Origin: Polytrichum commune
Taxonomy: Eukaryota; Streptophyta; Polytrichopsida; Polytrichales; Polytrichaceae
Length of the DNA stretch: 64,000 nucleotides
Assembly (NCBI GenBank): GCA_950295325.1
Contig: OX485804.1
Span: forward strand, 14,074,001-14,138,000
Direction of reading: 5' to 3'
Positions 4,824 to 57,450 of the stretch are shown piece by piece (position 1 is the stretch's first letter; each line of letters begins with the position of its first letter). The notes beneath the pieces are model-generated. The model was given only the letters and a program-made list of their open reading frames with translations. It searched no databases and was not told where the DNA came from. The position numbers and the translations under genes were made by a program.

Positions 4824-6297
4824 AGGGCCGGGGATTCGTGGCACTCATGTATTTTCATTAGTGAGAGTTCATTCATCTTTGCAGATGAGATGAACCACTT
4901 TAGACACTACCTCACGTTGTCGGCTCCTTGTCTCAAGGGTTTCAAAAATACCAAGTTTTAGTAGTTTTAAATGATCCTAGTCTAATCTAATACTTAAGGC
5001 AATAATGCAAAGGGGGTTAGATAAAATAAAAATGCCTCATATAGAAACAAGTGGGTGCATCATGCGTTGCCAACCTATGATTACTAGTCCGGTTATTTTT
5101 AAGAAATTAATATAGGCGGACATTTTATACCCCCTCACGAACTTTCGGGGGTGTCAAATCCGGGCTAGGGCAACCCTATAAAGAAATTTCTGAACCCAAT
5201 CGAAAATTGTTGCCCATCCTGCCCAACTTCGAAAAAAAACATTGCCCTTGCATTCTTGAAGGCCGCTTGACTACAAATCCCATATTGAGTGCACTTCACT
5301 TCAAGGTTTAAAATCCAATATATATATATGTGTGTGCACTTCCAATTAGTAAATAAGCAATTGATTGGGATTTCATTCCGGAAGTGAAACCATCAATGAG
5401 ACACGTAATTAACTTGGAGGTCAAAAACATTACAAAATCCTCATTGACATTGAGGTTATAATTTTGTGACTTAAAACTATCTTTGTCATCCTAATGATAG
5501 ATTAGTGCAAGTGTTCATAAAATGACCAAAATGAAACAATGAACGTAGAATATAAAACATACAACAAAAAAATTATATAAAAATTAATCATATTTTTTAG
5601 GTGATATAATATGAGGTATAAATAAATGGTATGTTATTTGGAATTAGACTTGTGGGACAACGTTATGGATGGGGTATACTCAGAAAATCATAAGTTTCTG
5701 ACTATAGCCTATCTGAAATATTGTAATTATATTTTATCCTCATCAAATATTCTATTATCTTTAAAATCACATGGTGTATATTAGTTATTTCAAATAAATT
5801 TTACTATATTATTACTATTATTATTATGAATTTAATTTTTAGTTCTTGAACCAATTTACCATAAGTTGATATATATTATTTTGACATATTACAAATTTTT
5901 GAGCAATCACACCCGTGCAAAATAAATGAATTATGAACAAAAAAGTGTTTATGACAAAAACACATCATTATTATATATTGCGCACGTTGATATCTTGCGA
6001 TATTTATCAAAATAACCATGTGGAATTCAAAGCCACATCATGGCCTTGGAAACAACTTATGGGAGGTTAGAAAATAAACTTAGAGCATTCCAATCCCATA
6101 TCGTTGCCTCTTGCCAATTAATTGATATTTACAAAATAGCTAGTAGTTCACAATAGCTATGAGGGAGAAAACAGGTCTGACATGCCAACTCGGAGGCGTT
6201 TCACTAAAGTAAGCTCCATCCATCCAAGCTTCTTGATGGACTCATCTAATTTTCGTTACCAGGAGACTTTACTTGAGTGCCACGAATCCCCGACCCT
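4824..6297. mobile_element. Inverted-repeat element of about 1.47 kb, superfamily unknown
   Basis: The left end AGGGCCGGGGATTCGTGGCA is matched by the complement of the right end AGGGTCGGGGATTCGTGGCA, followed by CTCA on both sides. Looser inverted similarity continues for roughly 80 bp inward (both arms include 'gatgag' and end near 'actttag'). The interior is AT-rich and non-coding, and it contains a single arm of the foldback family (5116-5508). No clear target duplication was found. Confidence 0.55.
5116..5508 (+). mobile_element. Solo arm of the foldback (MULE-like) family
   Basis: Matches the left arm of the complete palindromic element at 12500-13397 in order. Shared parts are the C-rich terminus with GGGGGTGTC, the 'cattgcccttgcattc.tgaaggccgcttgactacaaatccc' block, 'agtgcacttcac', and 'aagcaattgattgggatttcatt'. 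It also ends with the 'gaggttataatttt.tgactta' segment. No opposite arm is detectable within the next kilobase, so it is a half element or a degraded copy. Confidence 0.6.
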
Positions 6298-6677: not shown

Positions 6678-8023
6678 CCGTACGTTAAGGGCAGCTTCGG
6701 CGCTCTTTTGCCGAATAATTATTAAAAGTAAAAAAACAGTTTTCCGCGGCAAAAAAAAAATTACTAAAAATTTTGGCATTTTAAATAGTTTAATAATGCA
6801 ATTTCGGCATACATCCAAGAAGTTATTATCTAACGGTAAACAAGGATGTTTATTCACGATTTCACAATTTGTGTGAAGAGTTTTACAAAAGATGTAAATC
6901 TTTCACGATTTTGTGAAGAATTGAGAATGCTCTGTGCTTTATACAAGTAGAGTGGAGTTGTGTTCAACAATGCATATGGGATATGTAAAGTTTGAGGTGA
7001 AGCACCTAGTTAGACTTCATTTTTATAACACGCATAACTTTTGCATAGAGTCTTCAAATGACATAAAATTTGTTGGAGGTGAAAGATTACTTGATTTCTA
7101 AACTTTTCTTAGAGCAACAAAATTCCAAAAAAGTTGATCTTCTATGCACAAATGAGCTCCGAAAAACTGTTATGAACGCATTTTAATTTTTTGATCTTTA
7201 CACGGCTGCAATGTTTTGTCCATATCTTTTGCATAAAGACTTATTTTGACACAAAACTTGTTGGAGGTGGAAGATTACTTGATTTCTAAACTTTTCATAG
7301 AGCAACAAAATTCCAAAAAAGTTGATCTTCTATGCACAAATGAGCTCCGAAAAACTGTTATGAACGCATTTTAATTTTTTGATCTTTACACGGCCGCAAT
7401 GTTTTGTCCATATCTTTCGCATAAAGACTTATTTTGACACAAAACTTGTTGGAGGTGGAAGATTACTTGATTTCTAAACTTTTCATAGAGCAACAAAATT
7501 CCAAAAAAGTTGATCTTCTATGCACAAATGAGCTCCGAAAAACTGTTATGAACGCATTTTAATTTTTTGATCTTTACACAGCTGCAATGTTTTGTCCATA
7601 TCTTTTGCATAAAGATTTATTTTGACACAAAACTTGTTGGGGGTGGAAGATTACTTGATTTCTCAACTTTTGTTAGTTGGACAAAATTCTATAAAACTTC
7701 ATCTTCTATGCTCAATTGGACTCCAAAAAATTGTGTACAACACATCTGAAAAGCCTCACTTAGAGTCTTGCTACTTCTTAACCCATATTCTTTGTGGACT
7801 AGTGTAAGTGAGCTTGATTACAAAAGGAGCACCTTCTCTCCATCAGAATTCATATATGCTTCCAGTGTAAGTAAAATTCTAGTGAGAAGTTAAAATTTCT
7901 TACTTTTCGGCAATTTTGAAAATTAATTAATTTTATATTCGGCAAAAAATGTCAATAATTTTCCAAAATTTTCGGCGTCTATTTTTAGAATTATTTTGTG
8001 CCGAAGCTGCCCTTAAAGTACGG
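6678..8023 (+). mobile_element. TA-flanked inverted-repeat element with internal 188-bp tandem array, copy 1
   Basis: 1346 bp. The left end CCGTACGTTAAGGGCAGCTT matches the complement of the right end CCGTACTTTAAGGGCAGCTT, followed by CGGC on both sides (about 24 bp, one mismatch). TA flanks both ends (6676-6677, 8024-8025), consistent with a Tc1/mariner-type target duplication. The motif TTCGGC/GCCGAA occurs several times within about 150 bp of each end, a pattern often seen for transposase-binding subterminal repeats. The middle is a 188-bp tandem array. No transposase is encoded; the 60-70-residue frames it contains are incidental. A near-identical copy in opposite orientation is at 30426-31583. 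Confidence 0.75.
7071..7800 (+). repeat. 188-bp tandem array, three units plus a diverged fourth
   Basis: Units start with TGTTGGAGGTG at 7071, 7259, 7447 and, diverged as TGTTGGGGGTG, at 7635. The spacing is exactly 188 bp each time. Units 2 and 3 are almost identical; unit 1 has a few differences and unit 4 decays after about 120 bp. Each unit includes 'gagctccgaaaaactgtta' and 'ctttacacggc.gcaatg'. Confidence 0.9.
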
Positions 8024-12499: not shown

Positions 12500-13397
12500 G
12501 GCAAACATTAAACACCCCCGCACAAACTTTTAGGGGTGTCAGATCCAGGCGAGGGCATCCCTCCCAAGAAACTTTTGAACCCTACTGAAAATTGTTACTC
12601 CCCCGCCCAACTTTGAAAAAAACATTGCCCTTGCATTCATGAAGGCCGCTTGACTACAAATCCCATATTGAGTGCACTTCACCTTCAAGGTCCAAAATCC
12701 AATATATATGTTCACTTTCATTGAGTAAATAAGCAATTGATTGGGATTTTATTATCAAAGTGAAATTGTCAATAAAGCTTGTAATTGACTTGGAAGTCAA
12801 AAATATTACAAAACCCTCGATAGCATTGAGATTATAATTTTTGTGACTTACAATTTGAAATTTTCTTTGTCATTCTAAAATGATGCTTTAATTAGTGTGT
12901 TGATTTAGTTTGTATATTTTCATAATATTTTAGGTGATGTGAAAGTAGACGACATCACCTAAAATATTATAAAAATACACAAACTAAATCAGCACACTAA
13001 TTAAAGTGTCATTTTAGAATGACAAAGACAATTTCAAATTGTAAGTCACAAAAATTATAATCTCAAAGCTAGTGAGGGTTTTGTAATATCTTTGACTTCC
13101 AAGTCAATTACATGCTTTATTGACGGTTTCACTTTGATAGTGAAATCCCAGTCAATTGCTTATTTGCTCAACGGAAGTGAACATATGTATTGGAGTTTGG
13201 ACCTTGAAGGTGAAGTGCACTCAATATGGGATTTGTAGTCAAGCGGCCTTCATGAATGCAAGGGCAATGTTTTTTTTTTGGGAAGTTGAGCAGGGCAAGC
13301 AACAATTTTCAGTCGGGTTTTAAAATTTTCCCAAAGGGTTGGCCCCGCCCGAAGATGACACCCCCAAAAGTTTGTGCGGGGGTGTTTAATGTCTATT
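12500..13397. mobile_element. Complete palindromic foldback element (MULE-like), 898 bp
   Basis: Two arms of about 430 bp (12503-12940 and 12952-13394) are near-perfect complements, separated by an 11-bp spacer. The outer arm begins ACATTAAACACCCCCGCACA and the inner arms meet at TAGGTGATGT / ACATCACCTA. The exact 9-bp sequence GTTGAATAG occurs immediately outside both ends (12491-12499 and 13398-13406). A 9-bp duplication with long inverted repeats is characteristic of Mutator-like elements; foldback elements can share this. The first five bases of the two ends differ. There is no coding capacity; a frame on the - strand (12539-12736) exists only because the arm is conserved. Single arms recur at 5116-5508 and 46826-47240. 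Confidence 0.8.
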
Positions 13398-20310: not shown

Positions 20311-21110
20311 GGGCCGCTTTACACCTAGAGGCCAGGCCAATTCCCCTTGAGGCCGATTGCATGAAATTTTAGCCCCTTTTGGGTTTGGAGGCCAGCCTCA
20401 ACTACACATTACAATAAGATTATAACAAAGGCCAATTTTCCCATATGTAAAGGCTTTAGGGCCAAGAAGCCAGGCTGATTCAATAAATCTAGCATAATCG
20501 AAGCGATCTAGCATAGAGCTGCTCAAGTTTCCACAAAATCCAACGGATTTGGTTCGCTGAATAAATCACATTTTATTTTAAAAAGTTCTTTTTTTTTAAA
20601 ATCTGACATTGGCCTCGAGGCCAAGAATTGGTCCTCCATTTTGGGTGCACCCAATTCAACGGGCTTGGGCCATGTTAGAACATGCATTTTTTGATTAAAA
20701 AAATCGTACCACCCAATCGCCCCAACCTCTAGGTGTAAAGGGGTTGGGGCCAATTTTAGCCTTTTGACCAATCACAAGTGAAGATTTCAAGCCTCTTACA
20801 CAACGAATTGGCCCGCCCTCTAAGTGTAAAGGGGTTGGGGCCGATTTCAACCTTTTGACCAATCACAAGTGAAGATTTCAAGCCTCTTACACAACGAATT
20901 GGCCCGCCCTCTAGGTGTAAAGGGGTTGGGGCCGATTTCAACCTTTTGACCAATCACAAGTGAAGATTTCAAGCCTCTTACACAACGAATTGGCCTGCCC
21001 TCTAGGTGTAAAGGGGTTGGGGCCGATTTTAGCCATTTGACCAATCACAAGTGAAGATTTCAAGCCTCTTACACAATGAATTGGCCCGGCCTCTAGGTGT
21101 AAAGTGGCCC
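20311..21110. mobile_element. Harbinger/Tourist-like element with 91-bp tandem array
   Basis: About 800 bp. The left end GGGCCGCTTTACACCTAGAG matches the complement of the right end GGGCCACTTTACACCTAGAG, and both continue GCC. The left flank is TTA; the right flank reads TAC, so the duplication is imperfect or mutated. The right half is a tandem array whose unit ends with the element's own terminal sequence. The - strand frames here repeat the same peptide out of phase and are not genes. Confidence 0.7.
20733..21096. repeat. 91-bp tandem array, four units
   Basis: GTGTAAAGGGGTTGGGGCC begins units at 20733, 20824, 20915 and 21006, and the array is closed by GTGTAAAGTGGCCC at 21097. The spacing is exactly 91 bp. 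Units share 'ttttgaccaatcacaagtga' and 'agatttcaagcctcttacac'. Divergence is only a few bases per unit. Confidence 0.92.
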
Positions 21111-30425: not shown

Positions 30426-31583
30426 CCGTACTTTAAGGGCAGCTTCGGCACAAAATAATTCTAAAAATAGACGCCGAAAATTTTGGAAAATTATTGACAT
30501 TTTTTGCCGAATATAAAATTAATTAATTTTCAAAATTGCCGAAAAGTAAGAAATTTTAACTTCTCACTAGAATTTTACTTACACTGGAAGCATATATGAA
30601 TTCTGATGGAGAGAAGGTGCTCCTTTTGTAATCAAGCTCACTTACACTAGTCCACAAAGAATATGGGTTAAGAAGTAGCAAGACTCTAAGTGAGGCTTTT
30701 CAGATGTGTTGTACACAATTTTTTGGAGTCCAATTGAGCATAGAAGATGAAGTTTTATAGAATTTTGTCCAACTAACAAAAGTTGAGAAATCAAGTAATC
30801 TTCCACCCCCAACAAGTTTTGTGTCAAAATAAATCTTTATGCAAAAGATATGGACAAAACATTGCAGCTGTGTAAAGATCAAAAAATTAAAATGCGTTCA
30901 TAACAGTTTTTCGGAGCTCATTTGTGCATAGAAGATCAACTTTTTTGGAATTTTGTTGCTCTATGAAAAGTTTAGAAATCAAGTAATCTTCCACCTCCAA
31001 CAAGTTTTGTGTCAAAATAAGTCTTTATGCAAAAGATATGGACAAAACATTGCAGCCGTGTAAAGATCAAAAAATTAAAATGCGTTCATAACAGTTTTTC
31101 GGAGCTCATTTGTGCATAGAAGATCAACTTTTTTGGAATTTTGTTGCTCTAAGAAAAGTTTAGAAATCAAGTAATCTTTCACCTCCAACAAATTTTATGT
31201 CATTTGAAGACTCTATGCAAAAGTTATGCGTGTTATAAAAATGAAGTCTAACTAGGTGCTTCACCTCAAACTTTACATATCCCATATGCATTGTTGAACA
31301 CAACTCCACTCTACTTGTATAAAGCACAGAGCATTCTCAATTCTTCACAAAATCGTGAAAGATTTACATCTTTTGTAAAACTCTTCACACAAATTGTGAA
31401 ATCGTGAATAAACATCCTTGTTTACCGTTAGATAATAAGTTCTTGGATGTATGCCGAAATTGCATTATTAAACTATTTAAAATGCTGAAATTTTTAGTAA
31501 TTTTTTTTTTGCCGCCGAACACTGTTTTTTTACTTTTAATAATTATTCGGCAAAAGAGCGCCGAAGCTGCCCTTAACGTACGG
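30426..31583 (-). mobile_element. TA-flanked inverted-repeat element with 188-bp array, copy 2 (opposite orientation)
   Basis: 1158 bp, TA at both flanks (30424-30425 and 31584-31585). It is the reverse complement of 6678-8023, with only scattered base changes. From each end to the array the distances are identical in both copies (393 bp and 388 bp). The whole length difference of 188 bp is one fewer tandem unit. Two frames of 60 and 61 residues are identical in both copies, which reflects recent common origin and not coding constraint. Confidence 0.78.
30815..31190 (-). repeat. 188-bp tandem array, two units
   Basis: The unit junction CCAACA lies at 30809-30814, 30997-31002 and 31185-31190, spaced 188 bp apart. 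It has one unit fewer than the copy at 7071. Confidence 0.9.
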
Positions 31584-32931: not shown

Positions 32932-33564
32932 ATTGGTGTCTTTGGTGACCCATCCTTCAACTAATTTAGTGCGAAAGACAAGGAGGCGGTGAGATTTTTT
33001 TGGGCTATTCACCACTCAAAATGCTACACATTTTTGTGGGGAGGGAAGATTCAACCACCTATCCTCTCTCTTCGCGCAAACGATATGTTGAACTCTTCCC
33101 AAATTTGGAAAGGTATCGCTCTATTTCGGATGAAAGTACCCAAAGTTGGATGAGCATATGCACTTCATCCACATTTTCCATCACCCATCCACTACAATGG
33201 ATGTAACATAGCTACTTCTCTCTTGAGTAGACTGCATACTACACATCTCCCTATGAAATTTGAAACTACAAAAAAATTCCAAAAATCATAACATCACCCA
33301 ATGTTCCAAGTGAGTTGGGTGGGCCACGGGCCCTTGCATCTAAGACGCCGAGAATGTAACGTCAATCCTTTACCTCAGAAACGAGAACAACGTCCACTCG
33401 ATCTCAAGCCATGCTCGGAAACGAGCTCTTATATTGACTAATGTTATGGGAGGTGGCATCCAAGGAGTAGCATAACATTATCCAATTACAACTGTAGATT
33501 GGGCGAGGCCGACACTAAGTCAGATACTATTCAAAAGTCTACCATGCTTATTCTCTCTTACCAA
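32255..33564. other. No gene seen; family E copy and microsatellites
   Basis: Includes a family E copy (about 32515-32770), a G-run at about 32644-32659 and (CT)n at 32900-32927. The remainder to 33564 is non-coding. A short 'aatgttatggg..cataacatt' inverted pair lies near 33440-33480. The + frame at 33000-33206 is not recognised. Confidence 0.4.
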
Positions 33565-33679
33565 CATATTCACCCTCATAAACCCAAGTGAAACACTGCC
33601 ACTCATAATATCATAATAGAACGGCTCTTAGCAACTAAACAACATTATGAGAATAAAGTAGAGCGTGGGGTAGTAGTAT

Positions 33680-33712
<33 letters not shown>

Positions 33713-34126
33713 TATTCACCCTCATAAACTCATGTGAAACAATGCCACTCATCATATCATAATGGAGCGGCTCATAGCAACTAAACAACGTTATGAGAAT
33801 AGAGTAGAGCTTGGGGTAGTAGTATACAACAACAACAATCAACATATTCACCCTCATAAACTCATGTGAAATAATGCCACTCATCATATCGTAATGGAGC
33901 GGCTCATAGCAACTAAACAACATTATGAGAATAGAGTAGAGCGTAGGGTAGTAGTATACAACAACAACAACAACAACAACAACAATCAACATATTCACCC
34001 TCATAAACTCAGGTGAAATAGTGCCACTCATCATATTAGAATGGAGCGGCTCATAACAACTAAACAACGTTATGAGAGTAGAGTAGAGCATGGGGTGGTA
34101 GTATACAACAACAACAACAACAACAA
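33565..34126. repeat. Minisatellite, four units of 132-147 bp with (CAA)n cores
   Basis: Units start with CATATTCACCCTCATAAAC at 33565, 33711, 33843 and 33990. Each carries 'ggagcggctcatagcaacta' (unit 1 slightly changed), 'aacaacgttatgagaata', 'gagtagagc.tggggtagta' and then a (CAA)n run. Length differences come mostly from the number of CAA triplets. The array ends at 34126, about 110 bp before the expansin TATA box. The 196-residue - strand frame across it is a translation of the repeat. Confidence 0.9.
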
Positions 34127-42068: not shown

Positions 42069-42727
42069 CAGAGTTCGGGAAGTTTTTGAAGCCTTAGTGG
42101 CTAATTGCCGATAGTTGCTACGAAGGGTCGGATTTTTCCCAATTTACATCGGCAAGAGCCGGTCTTTTGTAAAATCAATCGCCCAATTGCCTATATTTTC
42201 ATATTTTCATTGGCCAATATTCGATTAGATGGAATTCATATCGGCACTAAGTGTTTTTAAAATGTATGAAAAGTTTTATTAGAAATCATTTCTTAGTACA
42301 AAATCTTGAATAAGTGAAAAGAAAGGCATGTTCAAAACTTTAAATTTGAAGAGTTAATATCCTTGGCAGGAATTGAACCTAGCAATGCCTTCACCGCTTG
42401 AAGGCCAAGGGTCCCCCAATTCTTCATAGAAGCAATTGGATTTGGTCATGGAAAGGTTGCATAATTCAAAAAGTTTAAGGTTTAGGGTACTTCCTCAAGT
42501 GCATCATTAGATGCCCCAGACAAATAGTGCTATGGATGCTTCCGGCTGAACTCTAGTAACTCACAAGAAGAACCGGCTACATTTCCGGCACATTTTCTGG
42601 TCCATCGGCTAATTGCCGGAGGATTGAAATTACAGTCGGATTGCCATCCGATGGTTGGAAATTTGGACTGGCCATGAGGGGAAATCCATCGGCTGATAAT
42701 GAACTAGCCATCGGTTTTCCCTGAACA
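42069..42727 (+). mobile_element. Inverted-repeat element related to family A ends, copy 1
   Basis: About 660 bp. The left end is CAGAGTTCGGGAAGTTTTTG; the complement of the right end is TATGTTCAGGGAAAACCGAT. The body is rich in GCCGAT/ATCGGC words ('ttgccgatagttgctacgaa', 'catcggcaagagccggtc'). The reverse complement recurs at 56821-57450. The terminal layout resembles family A (CAGTGTCCGGGGAGATTTTG / TGTCCGGGGAGAACCGAC), suggesting a shared mobilising source. No clear target duplication. Confidence 0.6.
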
Positions 42728-43062
42728 TAGGCGCAGGCTCCTCAAATTATCAAAGAATCGTTGTCAGAAATTAGTGTGGTTTTTTGTGGGTTGGAGTGAA
42801 ATGTCAAGATTGTTAATAAATAGTGTGATTCTAATATTAATTTAAAATCATTGTCATGGTTTCAAATGCCTGCATTATAGTATATTTTATTATGATTAAC
42901 GTTTACAGTAAACCTTGGATGTAAAATTAATCATGGAGATCACTAAATTTTCATTGTTGAGAATTGTGAGATAAAAATTAATGTGAGACATATGAACATG
43001 CACATACATATTAGTGTGAGATTTTGAAATTAGTGTGAGTCCCAAATACAGTGTACGTACTA

Positions 43063-46825: not shown

Positions 46826-47240
46826 TTAAACATCTCCATCCCCCCCTCCCCCCCCCCCCCCCTAAACTTTTTGGGGGAGGTAGATTCGGCTAGGGGTAGC
46901 CTCCCCAAAAGAAATCCAGAATTTTTGGACTTGATCGAAAACTTTTGCCTGCCCGTCTGCCCGACTTCGAACAAATCTTGCTTTCTTGAAGGCCATTTCC
47001 CACAAACCCCATATTGAGTGCACTTCACCTTCAAGGTCCCAAATCCAATAACTATGTTCACTTCCATTGAGTAAGTAAGCAATTGACTGGGATTTCATTT
47101 TTGAAGTGAAACTGATAATAAAGCATGTAATTAACTTGGAAGTAAAAAATTATTACAAAAACCTCATTAGCAATGAGGTTATAATTTTTGTGACTTACCA
47201 TTGAAAGGGTCTTTGTCATTCTAAAATGGAGCTAAAATTA
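46826..47240 (+). mobile_element. Solo arm of the foldback (MULE-like) family
   Basis: Begins in a C-rich terminus with a long C-run, then follows the 12500-12860 arm in order. Shared words are 'cttgaaggcc', 'ccatattgagtgcacttcac', 'cttcaaggtcc.aaatccaat', 'aagcaattgactgggatttc' and 'gcaatgaggttataattttt'. Only one arm is present. Confidence 0.6.
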
Positions 47241-47855
47241 CTAGTTTATTTTTAGCATGTTGATTATTATAGTTTAGTTAACACCTTCTTCTTTCACAAA
47301 GCATTCATGTGCATTTAAACTAATTAAACGTGATTGAGGTATGAAGTTTTATTGAGGACATAGACCAAGTTCTCAGTGTATAGTCTTGTAGTGTTTGTCA
47401 ACCCATATTCTTTGCGATGACTAACAATGACTTGGAATATAATGCTAACCCCTCCTCTTTGTAATGCTCTACAATGAATTTTTTAACACTACATAAGCTC
47501 GTGTAGAGCGAAAATTCACCATGTTTTGGTAAATGTGCAAGGTTAACTAAAGTGAATTTTGCAAATTGTGTTTCTTATTTTCAAAATAATCCAACATCTC
47601 TTTTTATGATCATTTTGTGTTGGACCGGCCATCCAACCAAGGTACCTTTGAGCACACCAAAACAACACCAAATGTGGAAGGTGTTGTACACAAAACAATC
47701 AAATCCCAATCAAAACTTCCATCGCGTTTACGGGTAACTCCAATTTGTGTGTGTTGTTCAACTAGAACATTTGGTGTAAGACTTGAATCTTACAATTGTT
47801 TGGTTTGTGAAGCTCTAGAAGGTAAAATGCTCTTGGTGTTTCCCACTTACTTACC
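47241..47855. other. No gene seen
   Basis: AT-rich non-coding interval. The + frame at 47617-47877 (86 residues) is not recognised and runs into the next element. Confidence 0.35.
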
Positions 47856-50639: not shown

Positions 50640-53600
50640 TTCCATGTCTCACATTCTATGGTTCCGAGACATTAGGGTCCAAGACCAAAGAAAGCGATTT
50701 TATTGGTCGAGAGCAACATTTTGGATCCAAGGAATTTACATTAGGATGTGGGTCCAAGGTATGAAAAATTGAAAAATTGAAGTGGTGTTAAAGTGGCATC
50801 ACCATCCCACCAAATATTGGTGGACCCAAGTGAAGCAACTATCTCTTTAGTTTGAGAAACTGCTTTATAAACTTGGGCCGGATCTTGAGTCCAAAGTAAG
50901 GCCCATAAAGGGTTGTTTTGGACACCTACTTTTCTGGACCCAAACCCTAATGTAAATCCATTGTTACCTTACATGAGACGTGAGTATGAAGGACTGAGGA
51001 GCATCCGATCATTCAATCACAATTAGAACATTGTTTGTGTGACTCGGCTGGGGTTTTGTAATTCATTAGTGGTGAGCATAAGTGGACAAATAGGTGTTTT
51101 TTAACTACACCATAACTACAAGTTGTTGTCCTTGTCAAAAATGTTTACTGAATAGAAACCTTGCAAAGTGCCACGTCAACCAAATCGTATTCAAATTAAT
51201 GAGAAAAATCCACATAAGGGCAAGACATTCTTCCCCGTTTGTCACCTCTAGTCATGTTGAATTCCTTCTCCAAGTTGTGCACAATATTGGCAACCCAATT
51301 GTTACTATGAAAATCTAAGAAAATCACATCAAATCATCCCCCTCCCCCCCCTCCTTTTCTCTTCCTCCCTCTTCTCCCTTTCCTCATCTCTTCCCCTTTC
51401 TTCCTTCATTTTGCCCTCCTTAGCCTTTCCATGCCCTCACATACATTGTGTTTGTTCAAGCTCCAATAAGTTGCAAGTCTATAACCATATATTCTAAGGA
51501 AAAACGTATGCATTCAAGATTCTATGAATTAACCAAGGGACATATCAATCAAGTTACTACTACTAGTTAACACAAGAAGTCTTGATGGTTATAGTTATGA
51601 AAGACACCTACTAACACTTTAGCTCCACTCTTGAGGATGATCTATTTTTAATGGTAACATCAAGGTTTTCATATACTTCCAATAACGCTTCCTTCCCTTT
51701 GTCTAATCCGCCTTCATTGTAATTTTCTCTCCTCTCTTACTCTTTTCCTCCCTTCCTTCTAGTATGTACTCCTTGGGTCTTCTCTTGTTTTCATATACAT
51801 TGTGTTCAAGGAAGCAGTTGCAAGTTCAAGAGTATACAAGTTAAGAATAAAAGCAAAGGCATGAAAGAAGTAATGAAATAAATGGGAAAAAAAAAAAAAC
51901 ATACATTCACTCCTTACCACAATAAATGCTACATTGATGGCTTTGATTATCCACTGTATGGAATTTGATTTAGTTCTAGTGGTCACGATTGTCTAGTGTG
52001 TGGACTCCAATTAAGTATTAGTGGTCACAATTGTCCAAGAAGGTGCACATTACCTCCAAGGCTATTATCCCAATTCTCATAACCTTGTCACAGAGGCTAA
52101 CATGGCATACTCCTCATTGCCCATCGCTTTCATTGGTTGTTGCCATTTCAACTCTAAATATAGTTGAAGCTCCCCACACCAATGACCTCAAATGGAACAA
52201 GGCCCCACATATTTTGAAGTGGAAAAAAATATATAATGACATTGGCGGAACAAAGCTATTTGAATGCTGAAGTACATCATAAAAATTTGACACATAAATG
52301 TAACTTGAGGTGTTTGAATTGTAATATGGACCAAGGTGGAATGCTTAAATGCCTCTAGGGGCCATTTACTCAACAACAACAAAATTAATAATAGATGACA
52401 TGAAGATAACATCCATAGGGTTAGAAGTTGTATTGTCTCTTGTCCAATGCTTATTAGTTCAAAAAAAATTTGAACAAATCACATGGTATTAAAATGATCC
52501 TTGAGTTTGCATGTGATATTGGAACCGTATTTACCATGCTCTGTTACAAGAATTCGTTTGGATTACAATACATGTGACAATGATGGCCAACTACACTAGA
52601 CATAGAAAGAAAACCAACACACGTATTTTTGTACTTGCCCATTTTTAAACATGTGTTTTGTTATAGACATGTGTAGAACACTGATTTCAAGAGTGTAATA
52701 CATGGGTGGATGCAAAAAATGCAAGAATCACCGATTCAAAAACTTGCAAAGGCTTCTTGAAAGCATCAAGGAGAGCTCAAATCTAGATACAACTCAAAAG
52801 ATTGTATCGTAGCTCTCTAGTTGTTTGGGCATCTTTCTGCCTAATAATCAAATTAAATGTGAAAATAAGTTAGGCAGTCCAAAAAATAATATTCTAAAAT
52901 TGGACATATTACAATAGTGATTTAAAACTAGTTAGACATTCATCCAAGTCATCTATATAATTCATGGATGGTTTTCCTAATTTTATCTATGGCGTCTAAG
53001 ATTAACTTAAACATTGCTCTTAACCTGTCACTTGCATTATTATGATTTTAGGCACTCTTTAAATTTACTTTATTTTATGTATTTATTTGTTTTTTTGACA
53101 CTAAAAAACACTTTCCTAGAAATTTAGGCACCCTTAACATCATTTATTTTCTGCCCAAGCTGCTAAAGTGCTACGGTAGTTTGGCATTGTAGATTTTTCA
53201 TTTTCTATTTAAAAAAAAGCAACATTCCCTTGTGCTCCTTATTTTGAAACCAATGTCATTCTTTTTTGTTTGGCCCATTACTTCATTCATACCATGTTGT
53301 GAGGCTTTCTTTTTGTCTGATATCTTTACCACGATGTTTTCGAAAAAAAAAAAAAAAAAAAGAAAAAAAGTAGAGTGTTTCGTTCTAATGTGCTCACATA
53401 CCAAGTCGTGAGATTTTGGGTCCAACATCTTTGCCATGATTTCATTCATTCATTTGTTTATTCAAGTTTTTTAGTTTGGGGTTTTGGTGGGTTGATGCTC
53501 AACATGTTGACCCGACAAGATACAATTTGGAGTTGGCAACTATGATTCTTGTCATAGTTTGAACTTTGCATGACGTTCGACTTCTTGACTTATTATCCTA

Positions 53601-56820: not shown

Positions 56821-57450
56821 AATGGTCGGGGAAAACCGACGGCTAGTTCATTATCAGCCGATGGATTTTCCCTCATGGCCGGTCCAAATATCCAACCATC
56901 GGATGGCAATCCGACTGTAATTTCAATCCTCCGGCAATTAGCCGATGGACCAGAAAATGTCCCGGAAATGTAGCCAATTCTTCTTGTGAGTTACTGGTTT
57001 TATGGGACATCTGATGATGCACTTGAGGAAGTACCTTAAACCTTAAACTTTTTGAATTATGCAACCGTTCCATGACCAACTCCAATTGCTTCTATGAAGA
57101 ATTGGGGGACCCTTGGCCTTCAAGCAGTGAAGGCATTGCTAGGTTCAATTCATGCCAAGGATATTAACTCTTCAAATTTAAAGTTTTGAACATGCCTTTC
57201 TTTTCACTTATTCAAGATTTTGTACTAAGAAATGATTTCTAATAACTTTTCATACATTTTTTAAACAATTAGTGCCGATACGAAGTCCATTTAATCGGAT
57301 ATTGGCCAATGAAAATATGAAAATATAGGCAATTGGCCGATTGATTTCACAAAAGACCGGCTCTTGCCGATGTAAATTGGAAAAAATCCGACCCTTCGTA
57401 GCAACTACCGGCAATTCGCCACTAAGGCTTCAAAAACTTCCCGAACTCTG
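56821..57450 (-). mobile_element. Inverted-repeat element related to family A ends, copy 2
   Basis: The reverse complement of 42069-42727, about 630 bp. Right terminus TTCAAAAACTTCCCGAACTC; left terminus AATGGTCGGGGAAAACCGAC. The internal frames on each strand are incidental. Confidence 0.62.

Follow-up and report, generated by a model that had tools for sequence, protein, structure and literature searches.

Two copies of a non-coding TIR transposon in a Polytrichum commune contig differ by one 188-bp tandem unit

A 64-kb stretch of the moss Polytrichum commune (64,000 nucleotides, hereafter the window) contains two near-identical elements, A and B, which are probably two recent insertions of one non-autonomous TIR transposon carrying an old internal 188-bp VNTR, with one unit lost in B. 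Element A (6678..8023, + strand) is 1346 bp long and has a TA at either side. Element B (30426..31583, - strand) is 1158 bp long and corresponds to element A inverted, minus one 188-bp unit. These lengths and coordinates, as well as the inverted orientation, had been given in a preliminary description made from the sequence and were borne out by alignment.

Ends, flanks and internal array of the two copies

The likeness of A and B is far above chance (BLAST E 0.0). The self-alignment proposed in the preliminary description gave a single gap of 188 bp and zero further indels, and the length difference therefore corresponds to one whole unit. Across the 1158 bases that align, five mismatches were counted, at element positions 64, 68, 97, 98 and 145, i.e. 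a divergence of 0.4%, and there are none in the last 427 bp, which comprise the last unit of the array (A4/B3) and everything rightward. The TIRs are 24 bp long. In A, the left TIR (6678..6701, +) is identical at 23 of 24 positions to the right TIR (8000..8023, -); in B, where they also differ by a single mismatch, they are located at 31560..31583 (left, -) and 30426..30449 (right, +). When up to three mismatches were allowed, the 17-bp core of the TIR occurred four times in the window, each time at an end of A or B, versus 0.01 occurrences expected from shuffles. The flanks of the two elements are unrelated, with the likeness ending 4 bp and 3 bp beyond the element ends, TA included. The idea of a mobile element with an array varying by whole units, already put forward in the preliminary description, is thus supported by flanks that diverge right past the TA-bounded ends in both copies.

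A and B are a non-autonomous TIR DNA transposon, since the TIRs lie at the exact ends, the flanks are unrelated and there is no coding match in A. The latter point comes from a Pfam search run on A only, in which none of the six frames, with stops read as X, gave a match at E<=0.1. Pfam scans of A, of 33.0-38.5 kb on the + strand and of 1-4 kb on the - strand revealed neither a transposase nor an autonomous partner.

With TRF, the array of period 188 extends over 7033-7734 in A, with 3.7 copies, and over 30715-31228 (- strand) in B, with 2.7 copies, and the sequence flanking the whole array is 355 and 289 bp in both elements. The preliminary description also remarked that this period approaches a plant nucleosome repeat length, a closeness that concerns a single number. 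The array-to-end distances are thus equal in the two copies, as previously noted, but the values of 393 and 388 bp reported for them fit counting full units only. The count of three versus two full units also holds, except that it left out a diverged fourth unit of 138 bp that belongs to the array. In A, the units are A1 (7033..7220, +), identical to B1, A2 (7221..7408, +), A3 (7409..7596, +) and the diverged partial unit A4 (7597..7734, +), identical to B3. In the array of B, B1 corresponds to 31041-31228, B2 to 30853-31040 and B3 to 30715-30852. A2 and A3 are the closest pair within A, with 3 differences over 188 bp (98.4% alike), while A1 differs from A2 at 12/188 and from A3 at 13/188 positions, and A4 shows 19-28 differences over 138 bp with A1-A3. 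Because the units within A diverge by 1.6-20%, versus 0.4% between the two copies, the array is, judged by this divergence, older than both insertions, and was present long before them. That it has been kept at three to four units speaks against fast growth in this element.

Direction of the change in unit number

Unit B2 is a mosaic of A2 and A3, with the A2 base at unit site 10 and the A3 bases at sites 172 and 175. In A coordinates, any position within 7231-7392 can be taken as the start of the 188 bp absent from B. Loss and gain were compared for element positions 146 onward, with the cluster of substitutions on the left set aside. For this part, a single 188-bp deletion converts A into B with no substitution and has 162 equivalent placements, whereas the best single duplication converting B into A leaves at least two substitutions. 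The favoured reading of the sequences is therefore that B lost one unit when units 2 and 3 misaligned.

A gain is unlikely. The array of the source would then have been the short one, of the B type, and a duplication would have added one unit in A. This would agree with A2 and A3 being the most alike pair in A, as expected after a recent duplication, and there is a precedent in the Tetris element, for which the authors attribute the difference between three and four units to a duplicated second unit (PMC4079207). However, a gain requires at least two private substitutions in the array of A, while for the 1013 bases of B that begin at position 146 a deletion requires no substitution at all, which makes the gain less parsimonious. 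Rather improbable is a collapse during assembly, in which B would truly be one unit longer and its units 2 and 3 would have been merged by the assembler. The 98.4% likeness of A2 and A3 could favour such an error, and merged units would give the same pattern as the clean A2/A3 mosaic of B2; the longer array of A stayed uncollapsed in the same sequence, and nothing decisive stands against a collapse. A segmental duplication, in which A and B would not be two insertions, might be suggested by their near-identity within one window but is practically dismissed, being contradicted by the unrelated flanks and by likeness ending 4 bp and 3 bp past the ends.

For the favoured loss in B, we propose the following history from the two near-identical copies. 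The transposon would have been moved in trans by a TA-duplicating transposase, possibly Tc1/mariner-like, and its old 188-bp VNTR would have been inherited from the source copy. During or after the move making B, units 2 and 3 would have undergone a misaligned exchange, with the loss of one unit. This loss could have occurred by slippage in post-excision gap repair, by replication slippage or by unequal recombination, and these routes are equally compatible with the data. The pair provides a clean snapshot of a single whole-unit change in a transposon, in which the mosaic unit marks the site of exchange and lets the direction of the change be argued.

The five substitutions between A and B are all confined to a left subterminal stretch of 82 bp (6741..6822, +; P 0.00016, by sampling). 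Such clustering is not explained by simple divergence but would be explained by a conversion tract or recombination. It suggests a further event of this kind, involving another family member.

Affiliation of the element and its possible relatives

TA is present at both sides in three of three insertions, namely A, B and the relative R described below, although it could instead belong to the TIR as its two initial bases. The most likely assignment is Tc1/mariner-like, through a transposase making TA target duplications. Several other groups were considered and rejected. For PIF/Harbinger (Tourist), the 3-bp target duplication is absent, with ATA on the left versus TAG on the right in both A and B, as judged by eye. 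The TIRs do not begin with CACTA, as CACTA elements would. Target duplications are 8 bp for hAT and about 9 bp for Mutator-like elements, and visual inspection of the flanks revealed no matching direct repeat beside the ends. Plant Stowaway MITEs are non-coding, have TIRs and show TA at the insertion site, and their termini begin with CTCCCTCC. The ends of A and B read CCGTACGTTAAGGGCAGC instead and do not fit this group, and the elements are also longer than a typical MITE. On neither strand does the window contain the exact sequence CTCCCTCCGT. Finally, an inner element was considered that would be bounded by TTAA beside GGGCAGCTTCGGC at each end. It was rejected on two grounds: A and B still agree in the bases outside TTAA, and R is without TTAA there.

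Motifs TTCGGC/GCCGAA are concentrated near the ends of the elements. On the left (6696..6808, +), there are three in the outer 150 bp of A and four in B, and on the right (7906..8005, +) there are four in each copy. For A, the two outer 150-bp stretches contain seven motifs in total on both strands; the shuffle mean was 0.23 and none of 10000 shuffles reached seven. None was found between these two outer stretches. Such an arrangement would suit putative transposase binding sites.

A diverged, array-free relative, R, of 374 bp with TA-bounded inverted ends, is located at 52805..53178 (+). Its own two ends show 7 mismatches over 27 positions, and its identity with A amounts to 88/149 aligned bases at the left end and 67/110 at the right end. 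Local alignment of like ends of R and A scored 28 and 22, and the highest scores among 300 mononucleotide shuffles for each were 21 and 18; unlike ends scored 12 and 14, not above background. Global alignment of R with A without its array scored 127.5 (shuffle maximum 92.5, 200 shuffles), and in the opposite orientation 79.0 (shuffle maximum 104.0). In single-sequence nhmmer searches, the left end of the element finds R with E 0.0077 and 12.6 bits (against 6.7 bits for the highest-scoring of 20 shuffled windows), and the right end with E 0.2 and 8.3 bits versus 8.0 in shuffled windows, the latter being weak taken alone. R formed part of the model used in a profile search, and the latter is therefore circular where R is concerned. 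The 154-bp middle of R scored 10 against the array on either strand, with shuffle maxima of 21 and 18, and gave no match beyond shuffles with the other inner parts of A. By its sequence, R points to a wider family, some members of which would be array-free.

A possible degenerate right end of another relative was observed at 47351-47645, where the sequence is collinear with roughly the final 296 bp of the element. It scored 375 versus a maximum of 334 in 200 shuffles, and 15.7 bits with nhmmer (E 0.00092) versus 8.0 bits in 20 shuffled windows; neither the left end nor the array was found there. Weak unit-like matches at 46.0-46.9 kb were dropped, as their scores of 320 and 90 compared with shuffle maxima of 403 and 137, respectively.

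Known systems, satellites and surroundings

Whole-unit variation inside TIR elements is already documented, and the A/B pair is a fresh instance. The foldback element Tetris of Drosophila virilis has internal repeats of ~220 bp and two nearly identical allelic copies with three versus four units (PMC4079207). Like A and B, Tetris is non-autonomous, with AT-rich internal tandem units of ~200 bp and near-identical copies one unit apart. Unlike them, its copies are allelic, its arrays lie inside long TIRs and its unit also occurs in satellite-like arrays of kb size (PMC4079207); A and B occupy two loci and have one central array between 24-bp TIRs, with no free array in the window. In Medicago truncatula, the MtPH-A6-4 PIF/Harbinger elements contain from 2 to 35 copies of a 60-bp unit, five of 23 members are array-free, and the authors tie the variation to abortive gap repair (PMC2213677). 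These are also plant TIR elements with an internal tandem repeat varying in unit number, but their 60-bp unit lies in subterminal regions and they have 3-bp target duplications, not found in A/B (PMC2213677). No earlier description of the A/B family was recognised among the matches listed from the open-licence literature, by titles and beginnings of abstracts. Nothing recognised as this element stood among the best 20 of 180 literature matches on 188-bp units in the context of rice and transposons, and the 13-base TIR core gave 0 papers in the open-licence literature. The 17-base TIR pattern matched 79 stretches in genome_contigs and six in viral_contigs; when the element was compared with these 85 loci by BLAST, the best 20 matches were 20-31 bp long, which we take to be chance occurrences of so short a pattern. 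In viral_contigs, a 26-base pattern of the unit gave 0 matches.

TA targets are a trait of the superfamily of miDNA4, a MITE of Xenopus tropicalis. As summarised in a review, this Tc1/mariner-type MITE carries a satellite monomer, and satellite amplification has been reported (PMC9659126). Its MITE-type organisation and its assignment to a superfamily with TA targets bring it close to A and B. It differs from them in its animal host and in the amplification reported there, not shown for A/B. The review gives a list of MITE-derived satellites, among them that of the Tc1/mariner MITE of Xenopus and a case from rye that belongs to the Stowaway family (PMC9659126).

The preliminary description had regarded the array as a plausible seed for satellite DNA, i.e. 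as the source of, or growing into, long free 188-bp arrays elsewhere. This idea is compatible with the preferred history of two insertions and a loss in B, and could draw on the VNTR of a mobile element changing by a whole unit and on satellites derived from transposons in other organisms, as presented in the review (PMC9659126). It is nevertheless very improbable: the array was old at insertion yet still has three to four units, the change inferred is a contraction, and there is no unit outside A and B within the 64-kb window. Neither BLAST, whose best match elsewhere was 22 bp long with E 0.032, nor a profile search, whose best match elsewhere had E 1.5, detected one in the window, which also lacks long free arrays of the 188-bp unit. 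We would give equally little credence to a novel plant transposon family defined by TA-bounded TACCGTA ends, TTCGGC motifs and a 188-bp VNTR that changes with movement and has also been freed as a satellite elsewhere in the genome. The pair would gain greater weight only if a genome-wide survey linked the unit to a satellite.

In the remainder of the window, no Rfam match at the gathering score and no tRNA gene were found. Expansin domains (DPBB_1 and Expansin_C, Pfam) are present at 33-38.5 kb, in keeping with a plant genome, and a tandem array whose units measure 132-147 bp and contain runs of ACA (33562-34126) lies some 1.6 kb upstream of the DPBB_1 match. Another tandem array, of 91-bp units in 4.2 copies, is located at 20726-21104. 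A palindrome of ~890 bp at 12505-13393, with arms ~88% alike, has shorter relatives at 5119-5494 and 46920-47298 and represents a foldback-type repeat family. A further inverted pair of dispersed repeats (42069-42728 and 56822-57450) is 90.6% identical over 660 alignment columns.
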